A stretch of DNA of 64,000 nucleotides. Origin: a virus. This document shows, one piece after another, positions 43,022 to 62,670 of the stretch (the first letter of the stretch is position 1; every line of letters starts with the position of its first letter). The position numbers were made by a program, and so were the translations under genes. The DNA is taken from positions 62,001 through 126,000 of the IMG/VR virus record IMGVR_UViG_3300042453_004886; one strand, 5' to 3'. Under the pieces are notes generated by a model. The model made no database searches. It worked only from the letters and a program-made list of their open reading frames with translations, and had not been told where the DNA came from.

Positions 43022-43092
43022 AGAGGGGGTCAGCTTTGCTGACCCCCTTTAAAAAGAGCGACTGGTGCGTACTTAACGTAATAGTCAAACCC
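43022..43092 (+). promoter_or_regulatory. Hairpin plus two-box element, copy 1
   Basis: AGGGGGTCAGC-TTT-GCTGACCCCCT hairpin, then TTTAAAAAGAG, then box A GGTGCGTAC (43064-43072), 12 nt, and box B TCAAACCC (43085-43092). It precedes paralog B (43143). Interpreted as terminator plus promoter. Confidence 0.6.
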
Positions 43093-43101
43093 TTTTACAG
43101 A

Positions 43102-43121
43102 GCCACACCTGTGCGTGTGGC
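43102..43121 (+). promoter_or_regulatory. Leader hairpin of the second paralog
   Basis: Identical 20-nt GCCACAC..GTGTGGC hairpin to 42371-42390, 22 nt before the start codon of the 165-aa gene. Conservation of leader as well as coding sequence shows duplication of a complete transcription unit of about 730 bp. Confidence 0.55.
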
Positions 43122-43142
43122 CACACTGCAGAGGAGAAAACC

Positions 43143-43640
43143 ATGCAGAAAAAGAAGAAGACCGTCGTCGTCGCTGTGCCCGTCGCCCCCGCCGCCGAGC
43201 CCCGCAAGGGGCTGTTCGCCCGGGTCCTCGAGGCCCTCGGTTTCCGCTCGGCGCCGCTCGTGCGCGACAGCGAGCTCGACCAGCCCAGGCTGTGCCGGAT
43301 GCTCCTTGACAACGCCCTCCGGGGCGAGCGGATGGTGTCGGAGGAGATGCTCAACCGGGGTCGTAAGACCCTGGAGCAGCAGATCCAGGCGGTCAGGGCG
43401 GCTGGGGACTTCCGGGCCCCCGTCGCCACGCCCGTCGCCGTCGCTCCCGTCGCCGTCGCTCCCGCCGCCGCTCCCGCCCGGGTCTGGGGTGTCTTGAACA
43501 CCCTGGATAAGGCACGGCTTCGGGCCTGGTCCCGGGCTTGGTCCGAGGCCCAGGCCGAGGCCCAGCCCGTGGCCGAGCCCGTGGCCGAGCCCGTCGCCAC
43601 CCGGGCCCGGGATGCCCGGGGCCGGTTCGTGAAGGCGTAA
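43143..43640 (+). CDS. Paralogous basic/Ala-rich protein B, 165 aa
   Basis: Tandem duplicate of the gene at 42412, with the same architecture: basic start (MQKKKKTVVV), core 'PRKGLFARVLEALGF...VRDSELDQPRLCRMLLDNALRGER', 'RKTLEQQIQAVRAAGDFRAP', VWGVLNTLDKARLRAWSRAW and C-terminal RDARGRFVKA. The variable parts are the Ala/Pro/Val linkers. Both genes share a 3' hairpin CCCCATGGG..CCCATGGGG and an identical tail TTTAGTAGTCTCATCCTATTAG. Preceded by two-box element copy 1. Function unknown. Confidence 0.6.
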   Translation: MQKKKKTVVVAVPVAPAAEPRKGLFARVLEALGFRSAPLVRDSELDQPRLCRMLLDNALRGERMVSEEMLNRGRKTLEQQIQAVRAAGDFRAPVATPVAVAPVAVAPAAAPARVWGVLNTLDKARLRAWSRAWSEAQAEAQPVAEPVAEPVATRARDARGRFVKA

Positions 43641-43741
43641 GCCTCACGACCGGCAACAGATCCCCATGGGCCTTGGTAACCCATGGGGACGCGTAGAGGT
43701 TTAGTAGTCTCATCCTATTAGAAAAACTACTTTTCTTTTCC

Positions 43742-43817
43742 TTTTTAGAGGGGGTCAGCTTTGCTGACCCCCTTTAAAAAGAGCGACTGGTGCTTACTGG
43801 AAGTAACAGTCTAACCC
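43742..43817 (+). promoter_or_regulatory. Hairpin plus two-box element, copy 2
   Basis: Same AGGGGGTCAGC..GCTGACCCCCT hairpin as copy 1, then AAAAAGAGCGACT, box A GGTGCTTAC (43789-43797), 12 nt, box B TCTAACCC (43810-43817). It precedes the 51-aa membrane protein. Confidence 0.6.
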
Positions 43818-43855
43818 TTTTGCGGCCATTTTAATCACGAAAGGAGGTGATAAGT

Positions 43856-44011
43856 ATGCGGATGAGCATGGAAGAGAAGTACGTTCGTAGGCGCCAGAAC
43901 CTGGCGCTGTTCGTTCTTCTCGTCCTGTTCCTCGTCGCTGGCGCGATGGAGAACCCCATGGATCGGTTTTCCTTGGGGTCCTCCACGCCCAGCAGCGTGG
44001 AGCAGGACTAA
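43856..44011 (+). CDS. Small single-pass membrane protein, 51 aa
   Basis: ATG at 43856 to TAA at 44011. The product begins MRMSMEEKYVRRRQN, followed by a clear membrane segment LALFVLLVLFLVAGAM (residues 16-31) and a short polar end rich in Ser/Pro. The preceding GAAAGGAGGTGAT is the full complement of the 16S rRNA tail, an unusually strong ribosome site shared with the two microprotein genes at 46673 and 51191. Too small to classify; possibly a membrane-active early protein. Confidence 0.6.
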   Translation: MRMSMEEKYVRRRQNLALFVLLVLFLVAGAMENPMDRFSLGSSTPSSVEQD

Positions 44012-44021
44012 TTGACTTCCT

Positions 44022-44137
44022 ACTCGGCGCTAGCGCCGCAATGCGCTGAGTAGGCTCTTTTTGAGAGGGTAGTAGCTTCGGCTGCTGCCCTCTTTAAAAA
44101 GAGGGATCGGTGCTTACCCCTTTCTAAGGTCTTACCA
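44022..44137 (+). promoter_or_regulatory. Double hairpin block plus two-box element, copy 3
   Basis: CCTACTC pairs with GAGTAGG around the palindrome CGGCGCTAGCGCCG. A second hairpin AGAGGGTAGTAGC-TTCG-GCTGCTGCCCTCT follows, then AAAAAGAGGGATC and box A GGTGCTTAC (44109-44117), 12 nt, box B TCTTACCA (44130-44137). The whole block of about 100 nt recurs at 46818 and 51328. It precedes the 477-aa gene. Confidence 0.6.
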
Positions 44138-44215
44138 GGCCTTGCTGTCGCACATTCGTCAGAAATCCCTTTCCCCCCTTTCAGGGGGGATTTTGCCATG
44201 AAAGGAGAAACTACC

Positions 44216-45649
44216 ATGGCAAGCTCAATTCGCGACGCGTTCCTCCCCCTCATTCCGGAGCTGAAGCTCCGGCAGGAGGCGCGGAGGGAAGCCCTCCGCG
44301 CGGACCGCCGGCAGGCCCGGGCAGAGGCCCGAGAGGCCGGCAAGGCCAAGGAGGCGCTCCGGGCGGCTAAGCGGTCCGAGCGCCGCGCCGCCCGCCAGGT
44401 GGCCGCCCATGAGCGCCGCGAGGCCCTCAAGGCGGCCTTTGCAAAGGCCGCCGAGGGCCGCCCCAAGTGGGTCCAGGTCGCCTCCCGGGTGCTACTCATT
44501 CACCCGGACGAGGTCGCTAGACGGCCTCGAAAGGCCGTCCTGGGAGCGCTTCCCACCTGGGCGCTCGTGGACCTGTACTGCCCAGACCCCTTCTGGGAAG
44601 GGGTTATCTGGGAAAACCTCTTCCACGAGGGGGAGGAGCTTATTTCCCGAGAGTTCCTGGAGAAGATCCTCCGGGGCACTTCTTGGAAAAAGCTCCAAGA
44701 GGCTTTTTCCAGATGGTGCCAGCTCGAAAACAGGCCCCCGGAGTGGGAGCCCTACGCGGCGTGGAAGTTCTTTATCTCCGGTGTTTACACGGGGGGCAAG
44801 AAGTTCTTCCCGCTAGCGGGAAGGGTCAGCCACATCCAGGGCATCCTGGAGCACGGCCCAGCGCCGGAAACCCTGTCGGAGGAGGACCTGGATGCCTACG
44901 TCCGGCATCCTGGGGAGTTCAGGCTGAGTGAGCTCCTGGAGAGCGCCGAGGATCGGAAGAACCTCGCGGTTCTCCAAGAGTACCTGGAGCGCCAGCGGGA
45001 GACGTATCTCCCGGAGGAGTTCCGGGAGATCACTGCCAATCAGATCCTCAGCAGGTGGAAGACGCACAAAGACGTGCGCTTCCGCCTGGAAGGGCAGGAG
45101 TGGAGCTCTCCCGACGGGAAGATGGCGGCCCGGTTCTTGCCCAGGACCGACATCAGGGGGCTGCTGGCCGGTGACATCACCGACTGCTGCCAGCACCCTA
45201 TCGGGGCAGGGTCCGAGGCTGCCTGGGACGCGGTCAGGCAGCCCAGCACGGGCAACCTGGCCTTCTTCCGGAAGGGCCGGATTGTGGCATTTACCTGGGT
45301 GTGGGAAGCCCAGGACGGGAGCATGGTGCTTGACTCGATCGAGTACCTGAGCTCCCGCTACATGCCAGAGGTGGCTCAGGCACTTGCTGCTTTTGCAAAG
45401 CAGCTGAGGTGTGAAGGAGTCTCCACCTTTTGGGTTGGGGGCTACTCTGAAGCAGAGCTGGCCTCCCAAGTCCGGGTCCTGGCGGGATTGCTAGGCAGTC
45501 CTCGGTGGGTAAAGGCTTCCCAAGAGGGGGCCTCCCTGAATGGGGAAACTCTCCAGGGCCCCAACCTGGTCCCTTCCGGGGAATTGCCAAAGCCCGTCTT
45601 TTGGATGGGCTACTCGGACCTGCACTACAACATAGTCAGGTTCGATTGA
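44216..45649 (+). CDS. Hypothetical 477-aa protein with GNAT-like C-terminal pattern
   Basis: ATG at 44216 is chosen over an in-frame ATG at 44198 because AAAGGAG lies 9 nt before it. Residues 12-75 are a long Arg/Ala/Glu helix (REALRADRRQARAEAREAG), likely coiled coil. The C-terminal part contains 'DGKMAARFLPRTDIRGLLAGDITDCCQHPIGAGSEAAWDAVRQPSTGNLAFFRKGRIVAFTWVWEAQDGSMVLDSIE', about residues 298-375. This has a Cys-Cys pair followed by a strand pattern resembling phage proteins with a GNAT-type or PcfJ-type domain. I cannot name the family or assign an activity. It is the largest non-polymerase gene of the GC-rich module and has its own two-box element. Confidence 0.5.
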   Translation: MASSIRDAFLPLIPELKLRQEARREALRADRRQARAEAREAGKAKEALRAAKRSERRAARQVAAHERREALKAAFAKAAEGRPKWVQVASRVLLIHPDEVARRPRKAVLGALPTWALVDLYCPDPFWEGVIWENLFHEGEELISREFLEKILRGTSWKKLQEAFSRWCQLENRPPEWEPYAAWKFFISGVYTGGKKFFPLAGRVSHIQGILEHGPAPETLSEEDLDAYVRHPGEFRLSELLESAEDRKNLAVLQEYLERQRETYLPEEFREITANQILSRWKTHKDVRFRLEGQEWSSPDGKMAARFLPRTDIRGLLAGDITDCCQHPIGAGSEAAWDAVRQPSTGNLAFFRKGRIVAFTWVWEAQDGSMVLDSIEYLSSRYMPEVAQALAAFAKQLRCEGVSTFWVGGYSEAELASQVRVLAGLLGSPRWVKASQEGASLNGETLQGPNLVPSGELPKPVFWMGYSDLHYNIVRFD

Positions 45650-45690
45650 TGGGCTGGAGTTTGGTAGTACCTCCATCAATAAAAACTACC

Positions 45691-45778
45691 ACCTTTTTTA
45701 GAGGGGCACACAGCTTAGGCTGTGTTGCCCCTCTTTAAAAAGAGGAACTGGTGCGTACTGGACGTATTGGTTTACCCC
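45691..45778 (+). promoter_or_regulatory. Hairpin plus two-box element, copy 4
   Basis: AGAGGGGCACACAGC..GCTGTGTTGCCCCTCT hairpin (one bulge), then TTAAAAAGAGGAACT, box A GGTGCGTAC (45750-45758), 12 nt, box B TTTACCCC (45771-45778). It precedes the GNAT-like gene by 23 nt. Confidence 0.65.
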
Positions 45779-45801
45779 TTAGCTCTTGAAAGGAGCTAAA
45801 G

Positions 45802-46227
45802 GTGATCACCGTTTGCAACAAGGAAAACTACCTTATTATTGAGGACGAGGTGCTCGACCTCGTCCGAGGCCAGTACCCCGCAGGAGGGCTGGCCCAAGTC
45901 GTCGGTGCGGAGAGCTCGCACCGGGTCGTCACTCTCCGGGACTGCGGAGACCTAGTGGGCATTTGCCTGCTTGACGTCGAGGAGGCCACGGTCGACGACC
46001 TCGTCGTCAAACCCAGGTACAGAAAGTACCTGGGCGAGATGCTCGCCTCGGTCCGAGAGATCGCCGGAGAAGGGGCTTGGACGGCGTACTGCCGGGCTAA
46101 GACGTCTGCTGTCACCGTTCGGGCTATGGCCCGCAGGGGGCAGCTGAGGCTTCTCCATCTCGGAGAGCCGGAGTACGACGACTACTTTGCCGAAGAGATG
46201 GTGGAGGTAGAGTTTCAGCTACTCTAG
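45802..46227 (+). CDS. GNAT-like acetyltransferase domain protein, 141 aa
   Basis: GTG start with GAAAGGAG 6-13 nt upstream. The order 'HRVVTLRDCGDLVGICLLDVEEATVDDLVVKPRYRKYLGEMLASVREIAGEGAWTAYCRAKTSAVTVRAMARRGQLRLLHLGE' follows the GNAT fold: strand pair, then 'l.v.p.yr..G.g..ll......a' helix, strand, and 'A......G' with the C-terminal strands. The pyrophosphate-binding loop is degenerate (RYRKYLGEML). Substrate cannot be predicted. The fold call is moderate and activity uncertain. It might modify host proteins early in infection. Confidence 0.45.
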   Translation: MITVCNKENYLIIEDEVLDLVRGQYPAGGLAQVVGAESSHRVVTLRDCGDLVGICLLDVEEATVDDLVVKPRYRKYLGEMLASVREIAGEGAWTAYCRAKTSAVTVRAMARRGQLRLLHLGEPEYDDYFAEEMVEVEFQLL

Positions 46228-46254
46228 CCTCCTTCCTGAGTGACTTCCTGAAAC

Positions 46255-46340
46255 CTTTTTTAGAGGGGCACACGGCTTAGGCTGTGTTGCCCCTCTTTAA
46301 AAAGAGGGAATGGTGCGTGCATTGGGCAGCACTTAACCCC
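46255..46340 (+). promoter_or_regulatory. Hairpin plus two-box element, copy 5
   Basis: AGAGGGGCACACGGC..GCTGTGTTGCCCCTCT hairpin, nearly identical to copy 4 with a base change in the stem. Then box A GGTGCGTGC (46312-46320), 12 nt, box B TTAACCCC (46333-46340). It precedes the 61-aa gene. Confidence 0.6.
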
Positions 46341-46364
46341 CTTTCATGTTCAGGAAGGATCCAC

Positions 46365-46550
46365 ATGAACATGAATGCCACCCGGAGCGATGTGTTCCGG
46401 GCTGTCGTGCAGGAGAACAAAATCCTGCGCGAGCGTCTTGAGGAATGTCAGAGGTTGATCAATCTCTTTTCGGACCTCGAGACGCGCCTTGCTGAAGAAA
46501 GGGCAAGGCAAATTGAGTTTGAACGGGAGCTCTTCTGGAGCTGCCGTTAA
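46365..46550 (+). CDS. Small coiled-coil protein, 61 aa
   Basis: ATG at 46365, AGGAAGG upstream. The product is almost entirely helical with heptad spacing (VVQENKILRERLEECQRLINLFSDLETRLAEERARQIEFERELF), so a dimeric coiled coil is likely. An open frame extends upstream into the hairpin/promoter element, but the ribosome site supports this start. Function unknown. Confidence 0.55.
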   Translation: MNMNATRSDVFRAVVQENKILRERLEECQRLINLFSDLETRLAEERARQIEFERELFWSCR

Positions 46551-46556
46551 AACTCA

Positions 46557-46632
46557 CCTTTTTGAGAGGGGGCAGGGATGCCCCCTCTTTAAAAAGAGGG
46601 ACCGGTGCGTACTGGATGCATTGGTTTACCCC
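46557..46632 (+). promoter_or_regulatory. Hairpin plus two-box element, copy 6
   Basis: AGAGGGGGC-AGGGAT-GCCCCCTCT hairpin preceded by TTTTTT, then AAAAAGAGGGACC, box A GGTGCGTAC (46604-46612), 12 nt, box B TTTACCCC (46625-46632). It precedes the first microprotein gene. Confidence 0.65.
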
Positions 46633-46672
46633 TTTGTTACGCGGCCATCTCTAAAAGAAAGGAGGTGATTAC

Positions 46673-46801
46673 ATGATGGAGTCGGATTTCCTCCGGGCCG
46701 AAGCGGCCCTCGAGGAGGCGATCCTCCGGGCTGAAGAAGCTGCCGAAACGGCGGCAGCCCGGGAGGAGTGGGCCGCTGCTTTCGCGGCGGTCTGGGGTTA
46801 G
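46673..46801 (+). CDS. Microprotein upstream of polymerase paralog 1, 42 aa
   Basis: ATG at 46673 (a second ATG follows at 46676), TAG at 46799-46801. The product is acidic and Ala/Glu-rich (FLRAEAALEEAILRAEEAAETAAAREEWAAAF), a single helix. GAAAGGAGGTGAT, the complete complement of the 16S tail, lies 2 nt upstream. A clear homolog of 39 aa occurs at 51191 before the second polymerase gene, with the identical run ILRAEEAAETAAAREEW. Conservation across the cassette duplication shows this is a real gene, possibly a polymerase partner. Confidence 0.65.
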   Translation: MMESDFLRAEAALEEAILRAEEAAETAAAREEWAAAFAAVWG

Positions 46802-46817
46802 TTTTTTCGTTTCTTTT

Positions 46818-46936
46818 CCTACTCGGCGCTAGCGCCGCAATGCGATGAGTAGGCTCTTTTTGAGAGGGTAGTAGCTTTAGCTGCTGCCCTCTTTAAAAAG
46901 AGGGACCGGTGCGTACTAGCACTAAAGGTTTCCTCC
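46818..46936 (+). promoter_or_regulatory. Double hairpin block plus two-box element, copy 7
   Basis: Same CCTACTC..GAGTAGG and AGAGGGTAGTAGC..GCTGCTGCCCTCT hairpins as at 44022, then box A GGTGCGTAC (46908-46916), 12 nt, box B TTTCCTCC (46929-46936). No good gene follows directly; the next 60 nt are a hairpin-rich noncoding stretch. Confidence 0.6.
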
Positions 46937-46996
46937 CAGAAACAAAGGAAGATGAGCTCACTCGGTGAGATCTTCCTTGCTGTCAGAGACAGCAAT
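46937..46996 (+). ncRNA. Candidate short structured RNA between two elements
   Basis: Between copies 7 and 8 of the element are two hairpins. In the first, GGAAGAT pairs with ATCTTCC enclosing CTCAC-TCG-GTGAG. The second is TTGCTGTC-AGA-GACAGCAA. A 36-codon frame crosses the region but runs through the next hairpin and lacks a spaced ribosome site. If the flanking boxes are promoter and terminator, the product would be a short RNA of roughly 100 nt. Confidence 0.35.
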
Positions 46997-47073
46997 GTTG
47001 CGTACATAAAAGCGGGGTCTAACCCCTCTTTAAAAAGAGGAATTGGTGCGTACACGCATTAAATGTCTTCCTT
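46997..47073 (+). promoter_or_regulatory. Two overlapping two-box elements, copy 8 and an extra core copy
   Basis: An extra core, GTTGCGTAC (46997-47005), 12 nt, TCTAACCC (47018-47025), is followed at once by GGGGTCTAACCCC hairpin, TTTAAAAAGAGGAATT and box A GGTGCGTAC (47045-47053), 12 nt, box B TCTTCCTT (47066-47073). They precede the leader of the first polymerase paralog. Confidence 0.55.
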
Positions 47074-47104
47074 TTTTCCCCGGATTTTTTATCGCGTAAT
47101 CCGG

Positions 47105-47145
47105 TGATCGCCATATACTTGGCGCCCTTTGCTCGGGGAGAGAGC
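47105..47145 (+). promoter_or_regulatory. Two-hairpin leader of polymerase paralog 1
   Basis: Hairpin 1 is CGCCA-TATACT-TGGCG (47109-47124) and hairpin 2 is GCTC-GGGGAGA-GAGC (47131-47145), about 27 nt before the start codon. The same two hairpins precede paralog 2 with a changed loop in hairpin 1 and compensatory stem change in hairpin 2 (GGTC/GACC). Hairpin 2 displays an SD-like GGGGAG in its loop. This may be a translational control element. Confidence 0.6.
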
Positions 47146-47171
47146 GTTTTCAGCGCATGAGGAGGAAACCA

Positions 47172-50100
47172 ATGCGTATGAACAAATTGGTGAATCAAAA
47201 GCACCAAGCGCTGGCGAAGCTGGCGGTGGAGAGATTCAAGAAAGCACAGGAAGCTCCTGAGGAGAAACCTGAGCCGACTATGGATCTCATCGCTCGGGCG
47301 AACGAGAAGGCTGTTGAATACAGCCGGCTTCGTAAGCTTGCCCTTGAAGTTCTCTCTCATGAGAGCTCTGAAGAGGGCTGTGTCGAATTCGGGATCAAAC
47401 CTGAAGACGACATGGGCGTAATTCGCCGCAAAGTGGTGAACCGTTTCAAAGCGGGTAACCACTCGGTGGTCCGGGGCGAGCTCAAGACGCTGTTCCCTCG
47501 TCACGAGGAGGACATCTACGAGCCCGCCGAGGTCACCAAGCAGGATGTTGCCGACATGGCACTCCTGTTCGGCGCGGAGTGGCCCACCGACGAAGCCTTC
47601 GGCTTGTTCGGTGTTACCTTTGACTGGGACAATGCCGGAAGGCTTGTTGTCAACGGTAAGAAGGCTCTGAGGAACGTCATCGCCGTTTTCGGTGGTGGTA
47701 TGCCTCACGAGCTCTTTCAATATCAGACTGCAGCTCTGGTATTGTTGGCCGCCCAAGGTGCTGCAGCCCAGGAGCGTGAGAGGTTTGCATCAAACGCAAG
47801 CCCTTACCAGGTCCAGAAAGCGCTGACGAAAGCCTTCCAGAAGGTGATCAACAGCGGGCCTGTGAACAAGGGTAGCGAACAACCGGCCTACGGGTTTGTT
47901 GATGCAACCTGTGCGCTCCGACTCAAGGAGATCGTTCGACCGATCGAAGTCCTGCTGGTAGAAGATAGCATCGTCTACCTGGAGCAGATTGATCCCATTC
48001 TTGGCAACAAGATGGTGAAAGAACTGCACCCGGACTACGGTGTGGATATCGAATCGGGTAACTACCGGCCTGCCGGTAAGATGCTCGACGAGAACCACAT
48101 CGCGGTAAGGTCGAGCGATGGGGCCAAAAGTGCCAAGCGCACCCGTATGGCCTCAGGTGAGCAACAGGAACCGGTGAATCCTGTGCTCTCTCGTGTTTCC
48201 TACAGAGGAACTCGAGCAACCGGCTCCCTGATCACCGCGTTCCTTGCGCCGTGTGCAGACCCGTTCTTGGCGGGTGGTCCTGGCGGTAGCCTTGATTTGT
48301 CGGGTGAAACCGGCGTCAAGACCAGCTACTGGGACGACGCGCTGCACAGCGGCACGAGCTTCGATATCCGTTCCGCCGAGGATAGAGAAGCCTTCCTGAA
48401 CACCCTCCCCAGCGATGGGGATGTTCTCGGCGAGACCCTTAGCGTGTTTGGCGCCCCACCTGTCAAGGTGCCTTCAGACGCTAGGGGCGTGGTCACTAAG
48501 GTGACCGCGGCCCCCGATGGAGCCTACCGCAATATGCGGTGGCAGGTGCATAGTCGTTTCAAGGAAACTTCTGTGTTCACCAAGCTCCGCGGATCAATCA
48601 AGACGATGGTCTCTGCAGGCCTAGTTGCGAAGATCCGACTCGGGGAAGGGTCCATCACCCACTTCGACATCCGCAATAGCGGACTTGCCCTGTCGGGGTG
48701 GGAAGGAGAGGATTTGTTCCTCTCAGGAGACGCATTCAAGGGAACCGGGAAAGGCAACAGCCAATTCCGGGTGGAAGTCGCCGTTGAAACGATATGGCAT
48801 TTCCTTCCTTTGGAAGCGGACAGTCTCCTATCCTCTCTGCTCCCGGAGGCGCTCTACAAGGGCGGAATCGTGGAGTATGACGAGGCGTTCGATCTCGACG
48901 GGGCTTACGAGCCTCTGATGAGGGAATTCGAGCGTCGTTTTGCCAAAGTCGCTGACCTTGGTAAGACAGTCGAACTGCCTGAAGTCTGGGACAAGTGGTT
49001 GCTTGAGCATGCCACGAAGGTCGGGCTGAAGGTGGAAGACCTCGTCTGGAGCCCCTTCCAAAAGGAGGGAGTCACTGGCAAGCAGGTGGCTTTCAACATT
49101 GGTAAGGGTATCACGGGGCTCCCAGAGTACCGCGTATTTGTACTTTACGACGATGGCTGCAAGGCTGTTGTGAGGACCACGACTGCGTTTAAAACCGCGA
49201 TGTTGGTCCGTGTAGAGTACGGAAGCGTCAGGAAGGCAGCCAGCAAGGCCCAACTTATGCTCGAAGTCGCTTACGGCGCTAAGGCAATGGGTCTTGACGA
49301 GCTCGCTGAGTTCCTCGAGTACGAGGGGCGTTCCAAAGCGCGTGCGGTGCTCAAGCTCATCCGTTCGGTTGGTCCCAAGGCAGCAATTGCTGAGGGAAGT
49401 CGAGTAATCGATGCCGCCGAAGCAACGGATGAGGACCTGCTTGAGATCGAAACCCTGCTCGAGAGTGATCTCGAAGCATGGCCGGAAGATCTTGTTATCG
49501 AATGCAAGTTCGAGGACAAGAACGGAAAGCTGTGGAGAGTTGTCTTGGCTCACCACTTGGTTTCGGTCATCTCAAAGGAGAACCCCCAGAGAAAGGCAAT
49601 CTCTGGCATTCTCGATGCGATCCTTAACAAAGATCGTACAAGGTTCGAGAATAACATCCGGGTCCTTGAAGGTGGGCTGTCTAACATGGTTTCTTTGGCC
49701 AATAAGAAACTGTGGAAGAAGGTTCACGCAGGTCCAAATGCTGCACACGGTAAGCGGGTCATCGTACTCGCCTCTCACGTGGGCTGCCATGAGGAACTGC
49801 TCGTCAATCCGTTCGGCAAAAATGCTAGACATCTAGCCAAGCAGAACGGTTGCGAGATCAAGGAACTGGATGGGCGGTGGGTAGTCGTCCAGCGAGCTCC
49901 ACAAAGCCTGCCGATTTTGCTGAGAATCGTGTTAACCACGGCTATCGGTAAGAACGTGTTCGGCATGACGGACCTTGCTGCCTCGATCGACAACGGCGAT
50001 CACGATGGAGACACTATCCTCGTGACGGTCATCCCTGACCAAATCGCCGAAGTGACCCTGCAGAAGTACAACGCTCGCAGAAAGTCGCTGTCGATTCACG

Positions 50101-51069: not shown

Positions 51070-51154
51070 CCTTTTTAACAGAGGGGGCTGGTTCATTCCA
51101 GTACCCCTCTTTAAAAAGAGGGACCGGTGCGTCGGTGCGTCCAAGGTGCAACCC
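51070..51154 (+). promoter_or_regulatory. Hairpin plus two-box element, copy 9
   Basis: CTTTTTAACAGAGGGGGCTGG..CCAGTACCCCTCTTTAAAAAG forms the hairpin. Box A GGTGCGTCG (51126-51134), 12 nt, box B TGCAACCC (51147-51154). GGTGCGTC is tandemly repeated here and in copy 10. It precedes the second microprotein. Confidence 0.55.
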
Positions 51155-51327: not shown

Positions 51328-51449
51328 TTTCCTGCTCGGCGCTAGCGCCGCAATGCGTTGAGTAGGCTCTTTTTGAGAGGGTAGTAGCTTCGGCTGCTGC
51401 CCTCTTTAAAAAGAGGGACCGGTGCGTCGGTGCGTCCAAGGTGCAACCC
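51328..51449 (+). promoter_or_regulatory. Double hairpin block plus two-box element, copy 10
   Basis: Third copy of the CTGCTC/GAGTAGG and AGAGGGTAGTAGC-TTCG-GCTGCTGCCCTCT block. Box A GGTGCGTCG (51421-51429), 12 nt, box B TGCAACCC (51442-51449). It precedes the leader of polymerase paralog 2. Confidence 0.6.
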
Positions 51450-55216: not shown

Positions 55217-55301
55217 ACTTTTTAACAGGGGGGCTTGGTTCATTCCAATGCCCCTCTTTAAAAAGGGTAACTGGTGCGTACAAAAACTCACAATCTACCC
55301 C
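55217..55301 (+). promoter_or_regulatory. Hairpin plus two-box element, copy 11
   Basis: CTTTTTAACAGGGGGGCTTGG..CCAATGCCCCTCTTTAAAAAGG hairpin, parallel to copy 9 with compensatory GCTTGG/CCAATG. Box A GGTGCGTAC (55273-55281), 12 nt, box B TCTACCCC (55294-55301). It precedes the hairpin array and the 156-aa gene. Confidence 0.6.
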
Positions 55302-56107: not shown

Positions 56108-56121
56108 CGAAGGGCAGCTCG

Positions 56122-56427: not shown

Positions 56428-56568
56428 GCGTTTTGTTGCGTACACTATACAAGGGTGTGCAACAAAGCGGAAAATTTGAGGGGAAAGACCTCTGGTAACA
56501 CTCACGTCACGAAAGCCAACACCATGGCAAGACGTAAGTTACCATTTGGCAACCCCTCAAACCACCTC

Positions 56569-57105: not shown

Positions 57106-57116
57106 GTCAGTAAGTC

Positions 57117-57141
57117 AGGGCCGGGCTATAAGCCCGGCCCT
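57117..57141 (+). repeat. Hairpin with ATA loop, copy 1
   Basis: AGGGCCGGGCT-ATA-AGCCCGGCCCT, 11-bp stem, between the 108-aa gene and the zinc-ribbon gene. An identical copy lies at 57302-57326 after that gene. No T run follows either copy. Confidence 0.6.
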
Positions 57142-57159
57142 CGCTCGAGAGGAGAACCC

Positions 57160-57294
57160 ATGAAAGAAGAAGAATACGCGGCCCTCCGGGACGCGGAGTT
57201 CATCTGCGCCTCGTGTGGAACAAACCACACGGGGCGTGGGGGCTTGCTCATGAAAGACGGTTGGGGGTGTGAGGACCCCTACTGTCAGTACTGA
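57160..57294 (+). CDS. Tiny zinc-ribbon-like protein, 44 aa
   Basis: ATG at 57160 with GAGGAG 5-10 nt upstream, TGA at 57294. The product (MKEEEYAALRDAEFICASCGTNH...GWGCEDPYCQY) has CxxC and CxxxxC pairs with an additional His, enough for one zinc site. The gene is flanked by two identical 11-bp hairpins, as if it were a self-contained unit. Too short for a family call; small zinc-ribbon proteins of phages often bind host enzymes or RNA polymerase, but that is only analogy. Confidence 0.5.
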   Translation: MKEEEYAALRDAEFICASCGTNHTGRGGLLMKDGWGCEDPYCQY

Positions 57295-57301
57295 GCGAAC
57301 C

Positions 57302-57326
57302 AGGGCCGGGCTATAAGCCCGGCCCT
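57302..57326 (+). repeat. Hairpin with ATA loop, copy 2
   Basis: Identical to 57117-57141 including flanking CAGGGCCGGGCT and CCCTCGC. It closes the zinc-ribbon unit. Confidence 0.6.
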
Positions 57327-57357
57327 CGCAACACTGCACGTGCTCGAACGGACCTTC

Positions 57358-57545
57358 GGTGCGTACATAACGTAGCGATCGCCACCAGCGGAGCTATATT
57401 GCGTACACCAGCTAAAGGTGTCCCTAGGACTAACCGGAGCAACGTGCAAAAAAATTGATGGGGGTAACCCCACCAAGGCCTGATTTCGCAAGAAATTAGG
57501 TGGGAACTGTCTTGGGGCTTTTCCCTCTGACATTCCCAAATGTCG
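57358..57545 (+). promoter_or_regulatory. Noncoding stretch with two core elements and a hairpin region
   Basis: Core copies GGTGCGTAC (57358-57366, box B degenerate) and ATTGCGTAC, 12 nt, TGTCCCTA (57398-57426). Further on, CCTGATTTC-GCAA-GAAATTAGG with flanking CCCCACC/GGTGGG makes a longer stem near 57463-57512. No gene in this 281-nt gap. It leads to the 151-aa gene. Confidence 0.4.
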
Positions 57546-57575
57546 TAGCCGATTCTATTCGTAAAGGAGGCCAGC

Positions 57576-58031
57576 ATGCTGGTCAAGATCCACGCTAACA
57601 TCCGAGTTTACGTCCCGGGGGAAAACGAGCTGACCATCAACGGTCAGGTCAAGAAGCCGTTTCTGGGGCTCCGGGGCCCTGGTGACATCAACGTCACGAT
57701 CTACGGCGGTACCGCCGGGGTCGAGGGTCTCGAGAAGCTCGTGAAAGAGCTGAAGAGCCACGCGCCGAAGACCGGGTACGGTTACGTGCAGGTCACGGGA
57801 GTGCGCAGGTCGGACTCGGGATTCATCGGTTTTGCGGGTGACGTCACCTGCACCGGGAGTCCTACCAACAAGATGCTGGAGTGGGCGGAAGGCCTCGATC
57901 TCGTTGCCCTGCAGAGGGACGTCGAGGAAGAGCTGAACGGGCGTTCTTCCCGTGCTCGCACCTGGGCACAGAAGAACACCAACGCCCAGCCCCGGAAGGA
58001 CGATGACAACGGAACGGCAATGCCCTTCTAG
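57576..58031 (+). CDS. Hypothetical 151-aa protein with acidic C-terminal tail
   Basis: ATG with AAAGGAGG 6-13 nt upstream. Residues 1-75 are beta-rich (VKIHANIRVYVPGENELTINGQVKKPFLGLRGPGDINVTIYGGTAGVEGLEKLV) and residues 75-125 mixed. The end 'PRKDDDNGTAMPF' resembles SSB-type C-terminal tails (DDDIPF), so an SSB-like or replication-associated role is possible, but the body does not clearly match an OB fold. Preceded by a hairpin-rich leader. Confidence 0.5.
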   Translation: MLVKIHANIRVYVPGENELTINGQVKKPFLGLRGPGDINVTIYGGTAGVEGLEKLVKELKSHAPKTGYGYVQVTGVRRSDSGFIGFAGDVTCTGSPTNKMLEWAEGLDLVALQRDVEEELNGRSSRARTWAQKNTNAQPRKDDDNGTAMPF

Positions 58032-58042
58032 TCATCGTTAAA

Positions 58043-58073
58043 TTTCAGGGGAGGACTTCGTCCTCCCCTGAAA
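58043..58073 (+). terminator. 14-bp hairpin with TTC loop
   Basis: TTTCAGGGGAGGAC-TTC-GTCCTCCCCTGAAA follows the 151-aa gene by 11 nt. The arms include A/T pairs at the base, but no downstream T run is present (CCCCCC follows). Confidence 0.55.
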
Positions 58074-58089
58074 CCCCCCGGAGGTCACC

Positions 58090-58515
58090 TTGGATTTTCC
58101 CGTCTACGAGTTGGACGTTAGCCGTCCAAAATACAGAAGACGAAAGAAAACCTTAAAAAGTGTCCTCACCGCTCTGGTTGGAATATCCGTGATGTACGCC
58201 ATGGCAAGATATTTGCCTGGCGCACGTTACGGATGGGTCGAGGCGGATTACCACCAGTTCCAGGGAAACTACATGGGAACCATGTTCAAAGGAAACCGGG
58301 AATACGTGGTGATCTACAAGAACTCGGAAGTTCGCTCGTTTGAAATCAACCCAGGCATCAGCCTGAGCTTACCTCATCTGGGAGCAATGGTTGAAGTTCA
58401 CTATAACAACGAGCAATTTCCGAAAATCATGCAGGGAAGAGACCTGAAGGCAATTCATATTCCGGACCCTGCACCGGAAAACGAAGGATTGCCTACGCGT
58501 TACGGCGTATTCTAG
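58090..58515 (+). CDS. Membrane-anchored protein, 141 aa
   Basis: TTG start with GGAGGTCACCT upstream. A basic stretch (KYRRRKKTLK) precedes a membrane segment (about residues 25-43, LTALVGISVMYAMARYLPG), and about 95 residues of beta-rich domain follow, probably outside the cytoplasm (FKGNREYVVIYKNSEVRSFEIN). It is 9 nt upstream of the TctA-like gene, so the two may form one membrane complex. No family recognised. Confidence 0.5.
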   Translation: MDFPVYELDVSRPKYRRRKKTLKSVLTALVGISVMYAMARYLPGARYGWVEADYHQFQGNYMGTMFKGNREYVVIYKNSEVRSFEINPGISLSLPHLGAMVEVHYNNEQFPKIMQGRDLKAIHIPDPAPENEGLPTRYGVF

Positions 58516-58524
58516 GAGGTTCAG

Positions 58525-59769
58525 GTGCCGATAGATATCATACCGGCACTTGGAGCCGGATCTCTTCTGGGAATGCTTGCGCTTTTCCCGGGGTTTCACT
58601 TTGCCATGGTCCTGCTTGTTGCGGGACCATGGATCCTCAACCACTTCACGCTAGCCAGTGGAATTTTGTGCATGGCAAGCGCGGTATGCGTGAGTAAATG
58701 CATGCATACCTTGGCGGTGGTGTATCACCCGGTATCGGGTAACAACATCGCCTCGGCAGATCCTGCTCAGCGCTTGGCTGCAGCGGGACAAGGCCGTTAT
58801 GCCACAGCGCTCATGGGAGACGCTGTCTGGGGCTCTGCCACAACCTTGGCGATTTTGCTAGGGGCTGTGGTGCTGTTCCAGACCTGGCTCCAGACAGACC
58901 TGATCAAGCAGGCGATCAAGCTAATTTCCAGCTTGAGCGGATTGGCAATCTTGGTCTGGATAATAGCTCTATTAGCCAGCTCCAAGAATCTGCTGGCAAC
59001 GATTTTCGTGTTCGGGAGTAGTGCAGCCCTGGGCGTCATTGCCCTGATGCACCCCGCAGTAGAGGGATCTACTCACACGATGACTCCGTTGCTGACAGGA
59101 ATGTTCGCGTTTCCAGTTCTTCTGAACACTCTCTTCGAGAAGCACTCCTCGTACCAGAGGATCGAAGTAGAGAAGCAAGACGAACTGGAGACAGATCCAG
59201 GCTTGAAACTCATCGGATTTATCACGGGTATTCTATCCGTGGGACTTCCGGGTTTGGGAACCTCAAGCTTGGTGTCCGTAAGTCAAGGCCTGACAGAATC
59301 AGATGCAGAATATCTCACCATGGCTTCCTTTGCGGAAACTACAGGTGAAATGATGGCGCTGATTCTGGGCATCCTGAGCATTGCCTCCCGTAGCTCAGAT
59401 GCAGCAATTATTCAGCAGGCCTTGCTGAAGCATACGGGAGAGTTCGCCATTCACCCGACTTTCATGTACCTGCTGCTGGGAACGATGCTCGTGTCCTGCT
59501 GGGTGGGTCTGAAACTGGTTAACGTGGTGAGCTTTCCGTACAGAGTCATGCTTAACCTCATCCCGGTGAAGCTTCAGGCTCTGATTGTGGCTTCGGCCAT
59601 GATCGGGCTGGTGTGGCATCACACGTCGATGTGGGGCATGGGGATCGTCTTGGCAGGCACCCTGATTCACCTCGGAGCTAAACAGCTCTATGTGTCGAAT
59701 CAAGTCCTGTTTGCCTGCATGGTGATCCCGATGCTGATGAACATGGCTCAATTCAACCCGTTCCGGTAA
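58525..59769 (+). CDS. TctA/DUF112-like multi-pass membrane protein, 414 aa
   Basis: GTG start with TAGGAGG upstream. About ten hydrophobic segments are visible. The start 'LGAGSLLGMLALFPGFHFAMVLL' and the middle 'FITGILSVGLPGLGTSSLVSVSQGL' match the two pseudo-symmetrical loops of TctA-type permeases (G..lG..pG.hp....; G...G..PG.G.......). Family members are about 500 aa in bacteria and about 400 aa in the shorter archaeal branch, so this resembles the shorter form. TctA is the large membrane subunit of tripartite tricarboxylate transporters. No TctB or TctC gene is visible. In a phage early region its role (uptake, membrane change) is unknown. Confidence 0.6.
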   Translation: MPIDIIPALGAGSLLGMLALFPGFHFAMVLLVAGPWILNHFTLASGILCMASAVCVSKCMHTLAVVYHPVSGNNIASADPAQRLAAAGQGRYATALMGDAVWGSATTLAILLGAVVLFQTWLQTDLIKQAIKLISSLSGLAILVWIIALLASSKNLLATIFVFGSSAALGVIALMHPAVEGSTHTMTPLLTGMFAFPVLLNTLFEKHSSYQRIEVEKQDELETDPGLKLIGFITGILSVGLPGLGTSSLVSVSQGLTESDAEYLTMASFAETTGEMMALILGILSIASRSSDAAIIQQALLKHTGEFAIHPTFMYLLLGTMLVSCWVGLKLVNVVSFPYRVMLNLIPVKLQALIVASAMIGLVWHHTSMWGMGIVLAGTLIHLGAKQLYVSNQVLFACMVIPMLMNMAQFNPFR

Positions 59770-59864
59770 ATTTGAGGGAAAGAGCGCATGACGTTCTTCT
59801 ATGCGAGGCGGTTATTGACTGGTCAGACCAGCAAGACACCCCACCCGACATAGGAGAGATAAGC

Positions 59865-60218
59865 GTGTCGACGCACTCTGACCTTCAATTCCCCAACTTC
59901 TCGAAGCTCTTAGTGGAAGCAATCGACCGCCTGAAGAAAGAAGGAGCGACTCCGCTTTCCACAATGGAGCAAGTTGTTGTGGGATTCATCACAGCAGAGG
60001 AAGACAAAGATACCAGCATCGGTGAGCGAATCGTATACGAGCTTGATTTTCTCAAGCTGCCCAAGTGGGTTGCGCTCATCACCTGGTTATCCCCGTTCGG
60101 AATCTGTTCTCATCATCCCCGAATGATTCTCCGCATAGCAAACTACCTGCTCGGTTATACCCGAAGCGAGGAAGAGCACAAGTTGCCCCGGCTCATGCGG
60201 AAAGAGTTCGGAATATAA
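59865..60218 (+). CDS. Hypothetical 117-aa protein
   Basis: GTG at 59865 is favoured because AGGAGAG lies 7-13 nt upstream; an in-frame TTG at 59772 would add 31 residues but lacks a ribosome site. The product is helical (FSKLLVEAIDRLKKEG; LSTMEQVVVGFITAEED) with a hydrophobic part LPKWVALITWLSPFGICSHHPRMILRIANYLLG near residues 71-104. No family recognised. A hairpin (CCCCTGGCTCCTTT..AAAGGAGTCGGGG) follows at 60227-60259. Confidence 0.5.
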   Translation: MSTHSDLQFPNFSKLLVEAIDRLKKEGATPLSTMEQVVVGFITAEEDKDTSIGERIVYELDFLKLPKWVALITWLSPFGICSHHPRMILRIANYLLGYTRSEEEHKLPRLMRKEFGI

Positions 60219-60226
60219 CTGAATAT

Positions 60227-60259
60227 CCCCTGGCTCCTTTGAATTAAAGGAGTCGGGGG
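60227..60259 (+). terminator. Hairpin after the 117-aa gene
   Basis: GCTCCTTT pairs with AAAGGAGT around GAATT, extended by outer CCCC/GGGG. It is followed by ACTTCCCC and no T run. Confidence 0.5.
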
Positions 60260-60313
60260 ACTTCCCCTGATCATACCCAATACCTTCCCAATACCTTTAG
60301 GAGATTAAGACCC

Positions 60314-60736
60314 ATGCGCTATACTGCTCGAATTGCCAAAGTGTCGGACTTCCCCAACACGAATTCGTTGAGCGTGATTGCCGTTCTGAAGACAGAGAAC
60401 GGACAGCTCATCGAGGACGTCTGGGTGAGCTTCTATCTCCCGTACAGCCTCGACATCTCCAACGATGTCCGGTCCCGTGTCTGCACGGAGATCGGATTCG
60501 AAGCCCAGGGTTACTCCTCTCAGCCCATCCCGGGACGTGAAGGGAACCCCACCAAGGGTCTGCAGCCGCTCCACGCCTTGGTTGGCCTGGACCGTAAAAG
60601 CATCGTCAGCATGCTCTCCCGTGAGGTTCGCCGCGGCACGGTCGTCAAGGATAAGGCCTTGGCGAGCCGCAACAAGAACCTCGTGTCGCGTGCTGCTGAA
60701 TGGCTGCAGTCGGCTGTGAAGCAGGCTGCCGAGTAA
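60314..60736 (+). CDS. Hypothetical 140-aa protein
   Basis: ATG with TAGGAG 12-17 nt upstream. The first 60 residues are beta-rich (MRYTARIAKVSDFPNTNSLSVIAVLKTENGQLIEDVWVSFYLPYSLDI) and the rest helical and basic (RKSIVSMLSREVRRGTVVKDKALASRNKNLVSRAAEWLQSAV), which could bind nucleic acid. No family recognised. A GGGGAGGGC-TTCG-GCTCTCCCC hairpin follows near 60753. Confidence 0.5.
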   Translation: MRYTARIAKVSDFPNTNSLSVIAVLKTENGQLIEDVWVSFYLPYSLDISNDVRSRVCTEIGFEAQGYSSQPIPGREGNPTKGLQPLHALVGLDRKSIVSMLSREVRRGTVVKDKALASRNKNLVSRAAEWLQSAVKQAAE

Positions 60737-60793
60737 CCTAGTAAAACCCAGGGGAGGGCTTCGGCTCTCCCCAAACCTACCTAAGGAGAAACC

Positions 60794-60988
60794 ATGGGCA
60801 AGATCAATTTCCTGATCGTCAGCTGCACGCTGACGCTCATCATCAACTTCGTCAACATCCTCGCGATCACGCGGGGAGAATACGAATATGGCATTGGAAG
60901 CTGGGTTGGACTTTGCATGTCCACCATGGCCATCTGGATGGCCGGGACCTGCATCTACCAGTACAACAAAATCAAACAATCTCTGTAA
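60794..60988 (+). CDS. Small two-pass membrane protein, 64 aa
   Basis: ATG with AAGGAG upstream. Two membrane segments are visible: INFLIVSCTLTLIINFVNILAI (residues 4-25) and SWVGLCMSTMAIWMAGTCIY (about residues 36-55), joined by a short charged loop. Such proteins in phage early regions can be superinfection-exclusion or holin-like factors. No evidence separates these. Confidence 0.55.
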   Translation: MGKINFLIVSCTLTLIINFVNILAITRGEYEYGIGSWVGLCMSTMAIWMAGTCIYQYNKIKQSL

Positions 60989-61014
60989 GAACAATCTCTG
61001 TAAGGAGGAAACCC

Positions 61015-61365
61015 ATGGGAACCAATGATTTGCTCCGTTCCTACATGAACGAGCAAGAAACTTACAACGCCAACCGGAAGACCCACATGCAGGTGATCGT
61101 CCAGCACCTGCGTGACAACAAAGTCCCTGAGTACAGCAGAGAGTCCTTCAAAGTGGCCCCCTGGTTCACCGGGTGGGTCTACTTCCTGAGCGAAGAGGGA
61201 GCCGTCACGGCATCCCTTTTCGAGAACGCAGAAGAAGTCCACTGGGGCAGCCTTACCACGGGAGAATGGTGCAACCGCATCGTTCTCGTCGAGGGACAGC
61301 TCTACACCTTTGGACAGTGGAGCAACCCGATGGGGCTCCCTGACGCCTTTGTCTGGAACGGATAA
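61015..61365 (+). CDS. Hypothetical 116-aa protein
   Basis: ATG at 61015 with AAGGAGG 6-12 nt upstream. The product has a helical start (LLRSYMNEQETYNANRKTHMQVIVQHLRDN) and a Trp/Tyr-rich beta part (WFTGWVYFLSEEGAVTASLFENAEEVHWGSL; LVEGQLYTFGQWSNPMGLPDAFVW). Not recognised. It follows the two-pass membrane gene by 26 nt and is likely cotranscribed. Confidence 0.5.
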   Translation: MGTNDLLRSYMNEQETYNANRKTHMQVIVQHLRDNKVPEYSRESFKVAPWFTGWVYFLSEEGAVTASLFENAEEVHWGSLTTGEWCNRIVLVEGQLYTFGQWSNPMGLPDAFVWNG

Positions 61366-61372
61366 GGTTTTC

Positions 61373-61508
61373 CCGAGGAGAGGTAGCCTCCTCGGGTTTA
61401 CGTGCCCCCTGAGCCTTGCAGGGCTCAGAATTGGGGAAGAGACGGGTGCAGTTGCAGCTGCACCCGACGCCACGGGCTGTTGCAGGGGGTAGGCGAAAGC
61501 CTACCCCC
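61373..61508 (+). repeat. Four successive intergenic hairpins
   Basis: CCCGAGGAG..CTCCTCGGG, CTGAGCC-TTGCA-GGGCTCAG, CGGGTGCAG-TTGCAG-CTGCACCCG and GGGGGTAGGC-GAAA-GCCTACCCCC fill the gap between the 116-aa and 73-aa genes. None is followed by a T run. There is no gene in this 170-nt interval. Confidence 0.5.
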
Positions 61509-61535
61509 GCATCAGTTATCCCTTAAAGGAGACTT

Positions 61536-61757
61536 ATGAGACTCAGCGTGAACGCCCTGGAAGCTGTATGGTTCCGTTCGAACTTGCTCAAGAGCAAGAT
61601 CGATCGGCTGTACAAAACGACAGCGGACTACCCGGAGCTGGACGGATTGGTTGCGGATCTCCAGGACATGGTCCGTCGCCTGGAAATCGATACCTACACC
61701 CTCTGGCGGAACGAAGCCGCAGAGGAAGAAGAAAAGACTGGAGTGCTCAAACCATGA
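61536..61757 (+). CDS. Small helical protein, 73 aa
   Basis: ATG with AAAGGAG 5-11 nt upstream. The product is helical and charged (VWFRSNLLKSKIDRLYKTTADYPELDGLVADLQDMVRRLEIDTYTLW) with an acidic cluster EEEEK near the end. Its stop overlaps the next start (ATGA), so the two are coupled. Unknown function. Confidence 0.5.
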   Translation: MRLSVNALEAVWFRSNLLKSKIDRLYKTTADYPELDGLVADLQDMVRRLEIDTYTLWRNEAAEEEEKTGVLKP

Positions 61758-61969
61758 GTCACGAAGAAACTATGAAGGTTGCGTCCTCCCTGAGGCTGTT
61801 GACACAGCTGATCAACGAGCTGCAGGAAACTGCAGCTCAAATCCCTGATGGAAAGCTGTCCCGAGAAATCCGGGGCAGCCGTGAATTGGCGAGAGATATC
61901 CGGGGCATGCTCGGAACTCTCCGCAGAACCCCTGAAACGAGTGTCATACGCTCGATTCAGAAACTATAG
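61754..61969 (+). CDS. Small helical basic protein, 71 aa
   Basis: ATG overlaps the TGA of the 73-aa gene by the ATGA arrangement. The helical product (LRLLTQLINELQETAAQIPDGKLSREIRGSRELARDIRGMLGTLRRTP) carries several Arg in its second half. Pairing with its neighbour suggests a small heteromeric complex. No family recognised. Confidence 0.5.
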   Translation: MSHEETMKVASSLRLLTQLINELQETAAQIPDGKLSREIRGSRELARDIRGMLGTLRRTPETSVIRSIQKL

Positions 61970-61980
61970 AGGAGGAACCC

Positions 61981-62277
61981 ATGGAAGTCTACAAATTTCT
62001 GGAAGCAATCAAGAAAATCCAGAATGTCGAGTTCTTCCCAAAGCCCAATGGATACCAGTGGGTGGTCGGGGAGGAGCTTTCGGTGATCAGCACCGAAGGA
62101 TCTTACGGAGGACGAGAAGGCCTGCTCGAGATGACGATCTTGTCGGATTGGAGTTTCGAGCCAGCAGGCTTTCTGACGGCTGAAGAGGCAATGGAAGGCG
62201 TTTACGCTTTCCTGGATGGCAAGAACTGGAAGGCGGAGATCTTCCGGTTCCGGGACGCCAAACAAAAGCAAAGCTAA
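61981..62277 (+). CDS. Hypothetical 98-aa protein
   Basis: ATG with GAGGAGG upstream, 11 nt after the previous stop. The product is compact alpha/beta (MEVYKFLEAIKKIQNVEFFPKPNGYQWVVGEELSVIST...SFEPAGFLTAEEAMEGVYAFLDGKNWKAEIFRF). Not recognised. It is the last gene of the GC-rich module, followed by a hairpin with a TTA loop. Confidence 0.5.
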   Translation: MEVYKFLEAIKKIQNVEFFPKPNGYQWVVGEELSVISTEGSYGGREGLLEMTILSDWSFEPAGFLTAEEAMEGVYAFLDGKNWKAEIFRFRDAKQKQS

Positions 62278-62281
62278 CACA

Positions 62282-62304
62282 GGGGCCAGGCTTAGCCTGG
62301 CCCC
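62282..62304 (+). terminator. Hairpin closing the GC-rich module
   Basis: GGGGCCAGGC-TTA-GCCTGGCCCC begins 5 nt after the last stop and is followed by CGAACTTTTCC. It marks the point where composition returns to AT-rich. Confidence 0.65.
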
Positions 62305-62352
62305 CGAACTTTTCCAGTCTACCTGGCTATCTTTACTTTAAATCTTGCTTTT

Positions 62353-62670
62353 TCAGTATCTCCACCCCGCAAGGGTCTAACCCACACTTCAGTATCTCCA
62401 CTAAATAAAGGTTTACCCCATTTTCAGTATCTACACTAAATAAAGGTTTACTACACTACAGATAGTGTATCAAATTCTGGTATCTCCACTAAATAAAGGT
62501 ATTCCCCACACTAGGGCTAGTGTTATTTTTTAAGACAGGGCTTTAAAATCTGGTATCTCCACTAGATAAAGGTTTACTACACTAGCGCTAGTGGTGTTAT
62601 ATTTTTAAAACACTACACTAGATCTAGTGTATTAAAATTCTGGTATCTCCACTAAATATGGGTCTACCCC
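62353..62670 (+). repeat. Array of six diverged two-box elements with interleaved palindromes
   Basis: Box A RGTATCTMC starts at 62355, 62391, 62426, 62479, 62552 and 62642. Each is followed by exactly 12 nt and an 8-nt box B (TCTAACCC, TTTACCCC, TTTACTAC, TATTCCCC, TTTACTAC, TCTACCCC). The 12-nt spacer is nearly constant (ACTAAATAAAGG). Palindromes built on CACTA..TAGTG lie between copies at 62452-62469, 62508-62523 (followed by TATTTTTT), 62580-62593 and 62614-62631. No gene lies in the 630-nt gap. It could be a promoter/terminator array, or iterons of an origin. Confidence 0.65.

Follow-up and report, generated by a model that had tools for sequence, protein, structure and literature searches.

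A family of intergenic inverted-repeat elements, candidate promoters of phage-encoded RNA polymerases, at a GC-rich block of a virus genome

We have analysed a family of short repeated elements in a 64,000-nucleotide (nt) stretch of virus DNA, referred to here as the window, which corresponds to positions 62001-126000 of the 194,626-bp virus genome in IMG/VR record IMGVR_UViG_3300042453_004886. The repeat family is real; 17 of its copies are clear, and as many as four more are weak. Eleven strong copies (class A) lie between 43.04 and 55.30 kb and six copies with a different first box (class B) between 62.36 and 62.67 kb, all of them intergenic and on the + strand (Table 1). As set out below, these elements may well be promoters of one or more phage-encoded RNA polymerases, with a core of the hairpin type and a logic resembling that of phage N4.

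An earlier note, made from the letters of the window, had described the family as a 9-nt box A, a 12-nt spacer and an 8-nt box B. We could confirm the positions of the copies between genes, their + orientation and the fixed 9-12-8 layout, as well as the six copies at 62.35-62.67 kb whose first box reads RGTATCTCC (starts 62355-62642). Eleven strong class A copies were likewise recovered, but box A is less uniform than had been stated: GGTGCGTAC is exact in just 6 of the 11, the variants being given in Table 1, box B is loosely conserved and the exact string GGTGCGTAC-N12-TYTAACCC occurs nowhere. When at most one mismatch in box A and at least six of eight matches in box B were allowed, nine matches were obtained on the + strand of 42.2-62.7 kb, but the opposite strand and the 42.2 kb at the start of the window gave none; the mean chance expectation was 0.01 in 200 first-order Markov surrogates. 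The search of the full genome that had been suggested was run with a position weight matrix (PWM) and with a covariance model, and no further good copy was found in the 194.6-kb record. Nor is the motif equally frequent in coding regions, since 15 of 15 class A and weak copies fall outside assigned genes, though 78% of the stretch is coding. The four weaker copies reported earlier are present; their membership of the family is doubtful, as all are devoid of the upstream block described below and the covariance model recovers only those at 57358 and 57398 (E-values in Table 1). Copies 1-6 and 9 had been placed 20-60 nt before a ribosome site; measured from the end of box B, the start codon is 23-60 nt away in copies 1-6 and 37 nt away in the copy at 51126, and the leaders of the two putative polymerase genes discussed below span 83 and 99 nt. 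The elements are thus recurrent, intergenic, co-oriented with the genes downstream and rarer elsewhere in the genome, as would be expected of promoters for a phage polymerase.

The 12 nt between the boxes had been taken for a neutral spacer. This was not borne out, as they form an arm of a conserved inverted repeat, a feature that had been missed. Both classes are imperfect inverted repeats with a common axis, in which positions 3-7 pair with 13-17 around a 5-nt loop (positions 8-12) and the stem reaches up to 11 bp. The left arm is nearly fixed, as GGTGCGTAC in class A and as RGTATCTCC in class B; the right arm is variable, yet complementary to the left one in most copies. In class A, the folding energies of box A, spacer and box B sum to -90.5 kcal/mol versus -54.7 +/- 6.1 kcal/mol with shuffled spacers, and none of 1000 shuffles reached the observed value. 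When both classes were counted at the fixed register i+j=20, 55 of 80 inner-stem positions were paired versus a maximum of 39 when the register was slid; in the ungapped alignment A6, 65.5% of cells were paired versus at most 48.5%, and the covariation score was 0.300 versus at most 0.145. Exchanging spacers between copies reached the observed folding value in 34 of 20,000 trials and a permutation restricted to Watson-Crick pairs gave 40 of 20,000, counts that overstate independence, as the copies are paralogous, partly through tandem duplication. Double changes were observed at 5:15 (C-G in class A, T-A in class B), -1:20 (T-A or C-G), -4:23 (G-C or A-T) and 6:14 (G-C or T-A). Copies 46312, 46908 and 47045 pair in a shifted register, and most class B stems contain one C-A mismatch. 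The pattern known from N4, fixed positions together with variable but paired positions in an inverted repeat, is therefore found for the set as a whole and not in every copy.

Classes A and B are one family, since the 3' box TAAAGGTYTAMCCC is common to both in the same register and at the same distance. A PWM built from class A alone (positions 16-29) ranked the expected offset first in 6 of 6 class B copies, and none of 41,900 background positions reached the class B median score. With the full PWM the two classes had appeared unrelated, a view reversed by the test of the 3' box. Class B has neither an upstream block nor an upstream stem-loop, and most of its copies have no gene directly behind them. 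Because it nevertheless shares the 29-bp unit with class A, this unit argues for a DNA-like mode of recognition.

Class A carries an additional part, also missed by the earlier note, namely an invariant 15-nt block, CCYCTTTAAAAAGRG, which is present in 11 of 11 copies and ends 5 nt before box A. It is preceded by a GC-rich stem-loop, closed by the block, whose sequence varies from copy to copy and whose folding is always kept. This stem-loop mostly has a T-tract on its 5' side, able to pair with the A-tract, and twice shows a UUCG loop. Separately, three near-identical terminator-like hairpins of the form CTGCTCGGCGCTAGCGCCGCAATGCG..GAGTAGGCTCTTTTT, two of them with CTACTC, were seen upstream of class A copies at about 44018-44060, 46821-46862 and 51333-51374.

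Promoters are the best fit to these data by elimination and by precedent. The earlier proposal of a promoter for a dedicated polymerase agrees with the placement in front of genes, the shared 3' box, the chance level of sigma-70-like promoters in the block (5 found, 3.5 expected) and the adjoining genes for probable polymerases, but the form it gave the promoter, two simple boxes around a neutral spacer, is not supported. Several of the block's genes have hairpins with T-tracts at their ends, so that a new start of transcription would be needed. We infer that the recognising enzyme is most likely one or both of two paralogous proteins, probably of the two-barrel type, P0001 (47157-50975) and P0002 (51549-55127). 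The polymerase would recognise each class by its left arm, and the inverted repeat would be extruded as a DNA hairpin or otherwise melted. The start of RNA synthesis would fall within the 3' box or immediately behind it, 20-60 nt upstream of the ribosome site. The two types of box A might each serve a polymerase of its own, as the earlier note suggested. In class A, the upstream stem-loop and the A-tract would end the preceding transcript, so that an element could be both a promoter and, in its upstream part, the end of the previous message. Because both polymerase genes stand behind class A copies of their own, the block would transcribe itself.

Several observations weigh against this proposal. 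The + strand of class A folds much better than its complement (z-scores of -5.9 versus -1.9), as expected of a transcribed RNA element; the best conserved part of class A is CCYCTTTAAAAAGRG, which class B does not have; and class A copies 44109, 51126 and 55273 form no good stem. To this must be added the mutual dependence of the copies mentioned above. On the protein side, the polymerase homology of P0001 and P0002 consists of weak, short matches, a profile-profile comparison (hhalign) with 17 YonO proteins gave no match, and AlphaFold models from the two-sequence alignment were too poor to show whether the fold has two double-psi beta-barrels, with predicted local distance difference test (pLDDT) values of 36.4 and 37.7.

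Some of these points would be explained if the class A module acted as an RNA-level cis element within a long message, its two adjacent stem-loops serving as an attenuator, an antiterminator of the put or nut kind, or a protective or processing leader hairpin, a reading which we consider possible and the main rival of promoters. The advantage over shuffled spacers and the preference for the + strand speak for it, as do swaps from G-C to G-U opposite fixed G's, the upstream stem-loop that keeps its folding while its sequence changes, and the RNA-like UUCG loops. Moreover, the strands AGAGGG, CCCUCUUU, AAAGAGGG and CCCUUUU could pair alternatively, as in an attenuator, and CTCTTTAAAAA resembles boxA. 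The put RNA of phage HK022 likewise consists of two stem-loops (PMC9378689). However, class B would be left unexplained: it shares the 3' box and the spacing but lacks the upstream stem-loop, its + strand does not fold significantly (z-score -0.6) and most of its copies have no gene behind them. The fixed sequence of the left arm also exceeds the needs of a terminator or a protective hairpin. One or two put or nut copies downstream of early promoters would be expected, as in HK022, where two sites lie near the early promoters; here, one class A copy precedes nearly every gene in the left part of the block. A search of Rfam produced seven matches, all far below gathering scores.

The inverted-repeat form would also suit sites for a DNA-binding protein such as a repressor, a replication initiator or a partition protein, and the class B array could be seen as an iteron-like origin or a centromere, since its six tandem copies are interspersed with ACTAG..CTAGT palindromes and lie in AT-rich DNA on the block's edge. 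We think this unlikely, as the half-sites are unequal (left arm fixed, right arm variable), unlike those of a dimer site, and the class A copies are unclustered, in a single orientation and just before genes. It is highly improbable that the copies are without present function, having arisen as gene cassettes were duplicated in tandem or as recombination sites between such cassettes. Duplicated genes do occur in the block (42412/43143, and the two polymerase genes with their short upstream open reading frames (ORFs) and conserved leaders), and their flanks might have been copied along; however, the elements are conserved where the flanks diverged, the right arm shows compensatory changes and the 3' box recurs in class B, at a distance from all duplicated genes. 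Finally, box A (starts 43064-57426) can be read as a start codon, GTG or TTG followed by CGT ACN, behind the Shine-Dalgarno-like AAAAAGAGGG, which opens short M-R-T ORFs. A leader peptide was rejected as a general explanation: three strong copies stop after 3-7 codons with the 3' box conserved past the stop, ORF lengths do not stand out clearly against those of another frame, and a start codon is missing from class B. The M-R-T reading is probably a coincidence.

Table 1. Copies of the element family and the two neighbouring polymerase-like genes (window coordinates).
Feature	Position	Strand	Remarks
Class A element 1	43044..43092	+	CCCCTTTAAAAAGAG block, box A at 43064, right arm and 3' box; GC-rich stem-loop directly upstream
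Class A element 2	43769..43817	+	Box A GGTGCTTAC at 43789
Class A element 3	44089..44137	+	Box A GGTGCTTAC at 44109
Class A element 4	45730..45778	+	Box A at 45750
Class A element 5	46292..46340	+	Box A GGTGCGTGC at 46312
Class A element 6	46584..46632	+	Box A at 46604
Class A element 7	46888..46936	+	Box A at 46908
Weak copy	46997..47025	+	GTTGCGTAC-N12-TCTAACCC; no upstream block; 3' box inside small stem-loop preceding element 8; doubtful
Class A element 8	47025..47073	+	Box A at 47045; precedes putative polymerase gene 1
Class A element 9	51106..51154	+	Box A GGTGCGTCG at 51126
Class A element 10	51401..51449	+	Box A GGTGCGTCG at 51421; precedes putative polymerase gene 2
Class A element 11	55253..55301	+	Box A at 55273; block ends AAAAAGGG
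Weak copy	56435..56463	+	GTTGCGTAC; hairpin forms; 3' box poor; doubtful
Weak copy	57358..57386	+	GGTGCGTAC; stem 3-7:13-17 intact; 3' box poor; E 0.42
Weak copy	57398..57426	+	ATTGCGTAC; 3' box TAAAGGTGTCCC; E 8
Class B element 1	62355..62383	+	
Class B element 2	62391..62419	+	
Class B element 3	62426..62454	+	Followed by palindrome ACTACAGATAGT
Class B element 4	62479..62507	+	Followed by ACACTAGGGCTAGTGTTATTTTTT
Class B element 5	62552..62580	+	Perfect 5-bp stem TATCT/AGATA; followed by ACTAGCGCTAGT
Class B element 6	62642..62670	+	
P0001	47157..50975	+	1272 amino acids; probable single-chain two-barrel RNA polymerase; QRAP...NGDHDGD; behind element 8
P0002	51549..55127	+	1192 amino acids; paralogue of P0001; LRAP...GDFDGE; behind element 10

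P0001 and P0002 are probably single-chain two-barrel RNA polymerases, as judged from short signatures and matches. The earlier note had named proteins of 1267 and 1192 amino acids (aa) as the polymerases; both gained some weak independent support, and the first has 1272 aa here. The two share 33% identity over nearly their full length. The two-barrel signature, a DxDGD loop with an upstream RxP, is present in P0001 and one residue off in P0002, whose DFDGE (54183-54197, codons 879-883) has Glu in place of the third Asp of the metal triad, compared with DHDGD in P0001. The order RxP then DxDGD is common to the two-barrel enzymes compared (RpoC, YonO, and gp64 and gp96 of P23-45). Family scans with the whole-length proteins gave no match; with the metal-binding fragments, the best Pfam match was RNA_pol_Rpb1_2 (E 0.0085 for P0002 and 0.2 for P0001, weak and below the curated cut-off), and the best PHROG match of P0001 was 'RNA polymerase beta subunit', also weak (E 0.095). 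In a Smith-Waterman comparison, P0002 aligned with E. coli RpoC over RAP...DFDG...VPL..EA (p about 0.002 by shuffling), and other pairings in the same test were non-significant or marginal. Sequence searches of the PDB returned nothing relevant. Since activity of YonO was abolished when all three aspartates were changed to asparagine (PMC5467207), the polymerase activity of P0002 with its GDFDGE is putative. The leaders of the two genes (47074-47157 and 51450-51549) have GATCGCCATAYASYTGGCGCC in common, together with a GSTC..GASC stem that shows double changes, possibly a conserved leader RNA.

A third large protein, P0003 (31866-41759, 3297 aa), has an N-terminal PLD-like domain (E 9e-13) and a single DFDGD at residue 2380. 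No polymerase profile matched it; it is a possible virion polymerase in the style of N4, P23-45 or crAss phages. A T7-like polymerase (PF00940) was not found in the record, in a search where control genomes likewise gave nothing. Relatives of P0001, of the P0001/P0002 alignment, of P0003 and of three element patterns were not found in the viral contig collection; P0001 and P0003 (C-terminal 2097 aa) had no match in the phage collection, P0002 none in the plasmid collection and the P0001/P0002 alignment none in the genome contig collection. A relaxed element pattern gave 11 single, unrelated matches in the genome contigs, about the number expected by chance. Relatives of the elements or of the polymerases were thus found in none of the collections searched.

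The record carries a 196-bp direct terminal repeat with one mismatch at both ends (L017:8431-8626 and L018:1-196) and is therefore probably a complete phage genome of 194.6 kb. Judging from its genes for a portal, a tail sheath and a head protease, the virus is a tailed phage with a contractile tail. Microcystis and Microcoleus phages are among the best matches of tail sheath and portal, at identities of 27-34%, which is distant; a 39-kb contig with a head protease 98% identical ends short of the block and has no P0001. The GC content is about 40% over most of the genome versus 52-61% in 42.3-62.3 kb, and at third codon positions it is 0.57-0.90 for genes of the block versus 0.27-0.49 for those outside. 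The assigned genes of this 20-kb block (42300-62300) are all on the + strand and its borders fall between genes; a flanking direct repeat of at least 14 nt was looked for at these borders and not found. A real junction, as opposed to a chimeric assembly, is favoured by the terminal repeat, by the position of the borders between genes and by the fact that the element family occurs to either side of the composition border on the right. Elsewhere in the genome, the regions upstream of genes yielded no dominant motif.

At the left of the block, two paralogous proteins of 167 aa (42412-42915) and 165 aa (43143-43640), with a GC content of about 0.72, belong to no known family, and only the gene at 43143-43640 stands behind a class A copy. 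At the right-hand side, palindromes around ACTA-N4-TAGT, often TACACTA..TAGTGTA, occur at 62455, 62510, 62581, 62617 and 63941 and at L014:1169, 1517 and 2153; several immediately precede a ribosome site or fall between two class B copies, and they may be terminators or operators. Also to the right of the block, L014:250-800 is a long, AT-rich and apparently non-coding stretch with large inverted repeats, possibly a replication origin.

Single-chain two-barrel polymerases are thought to stand near the ancestor of all cellular RNA polymerases, and YonO is the best studied of them. A more complete picture, offered tentatively and somewhat unlikely to hold in full, is that of a self-transcribing GC-rich block in a jumbo-type phage, where two diverged two-barrel polymerases, one of them with DFDGE, would use promoters read as hairpins, the 5' arm setting the class and the common 3' box the start. 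If true, the two-barrel superfamily would have a mechanism based on hairpin promoters, and enzymes of the YonO/QDE-1 kind a set of promoters defined by sequence; hairpin promoters would be extended from the T7-like enzyme of N4 to an unrelated superfamily of polymerases. Given a natural set of at least 17 matched elements beside two such enzymes, two purified proteins and two short templates would then suffice for a direct test of promoter recognition that needs neither sigma nor other factors. If the elements act as RNA instead, this would be an unusual case of a phage gene cluster in which an RNA element recurs ahead of almost all genes.

Among known systems, HK022 put RNA resembles class A in having two adjacent RNA stem-loops upstream of phage genes; each phage carries two copies of it, located downstream of PL and PR (PMC9378689). 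Unlike these, the elements described here comprise 11 copies in the left part of the block and a second class lacking the upstream stem-loop. YonO of SPbeta, a phage late-gene polymerase, has the same single-chain signature RxP...DxDGD (PMC5467207), but it measures 839 aa versus 1192-1272 aa and shows no detectable profile similarity; its promoter was stated to be unknown in the 2017 description (PMC5467207). The promoters of the N4 virion RNA polymerase (vRNAP) are also inverted repeats, in which some bases are fixed and others are free to vary if paired (PMC4496689), and a giant protein is encoded in both genomes (3297 aa here, about 3500 aa for the N4 vRNAP). The N4 vRNAP is T7-like, however, and uses three sites, in each of which a GC-rich heptamer is centred at -11 (PMC4496689), whereas here the stem has up to 11 bp, the loop has 5 nt and the + strand folds better. 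A further parallel is P23-45, for which the excerpted report describes two phage single-chain two-barrel polymerases, the vRNAP gp96 and the non-virion RNA polymerase (nvRNAP) gp64, and two promoter classes, one AT-rich and one GC-rich, with a motif confined to part of the genome (PMC10770324). Two motif classes, AT-rich and GC-rich, limited to a portion of the genome, also occur here. Those P23-45 promoters were mapped by cappable-seq and chromatin immunoprecipitation, unlike the present elements, which are known from sequence alone, and the same excerpts mention no inverted repeat in them (PMC10770324); here, the motif is restricted to a single 20-kb block and its edge.

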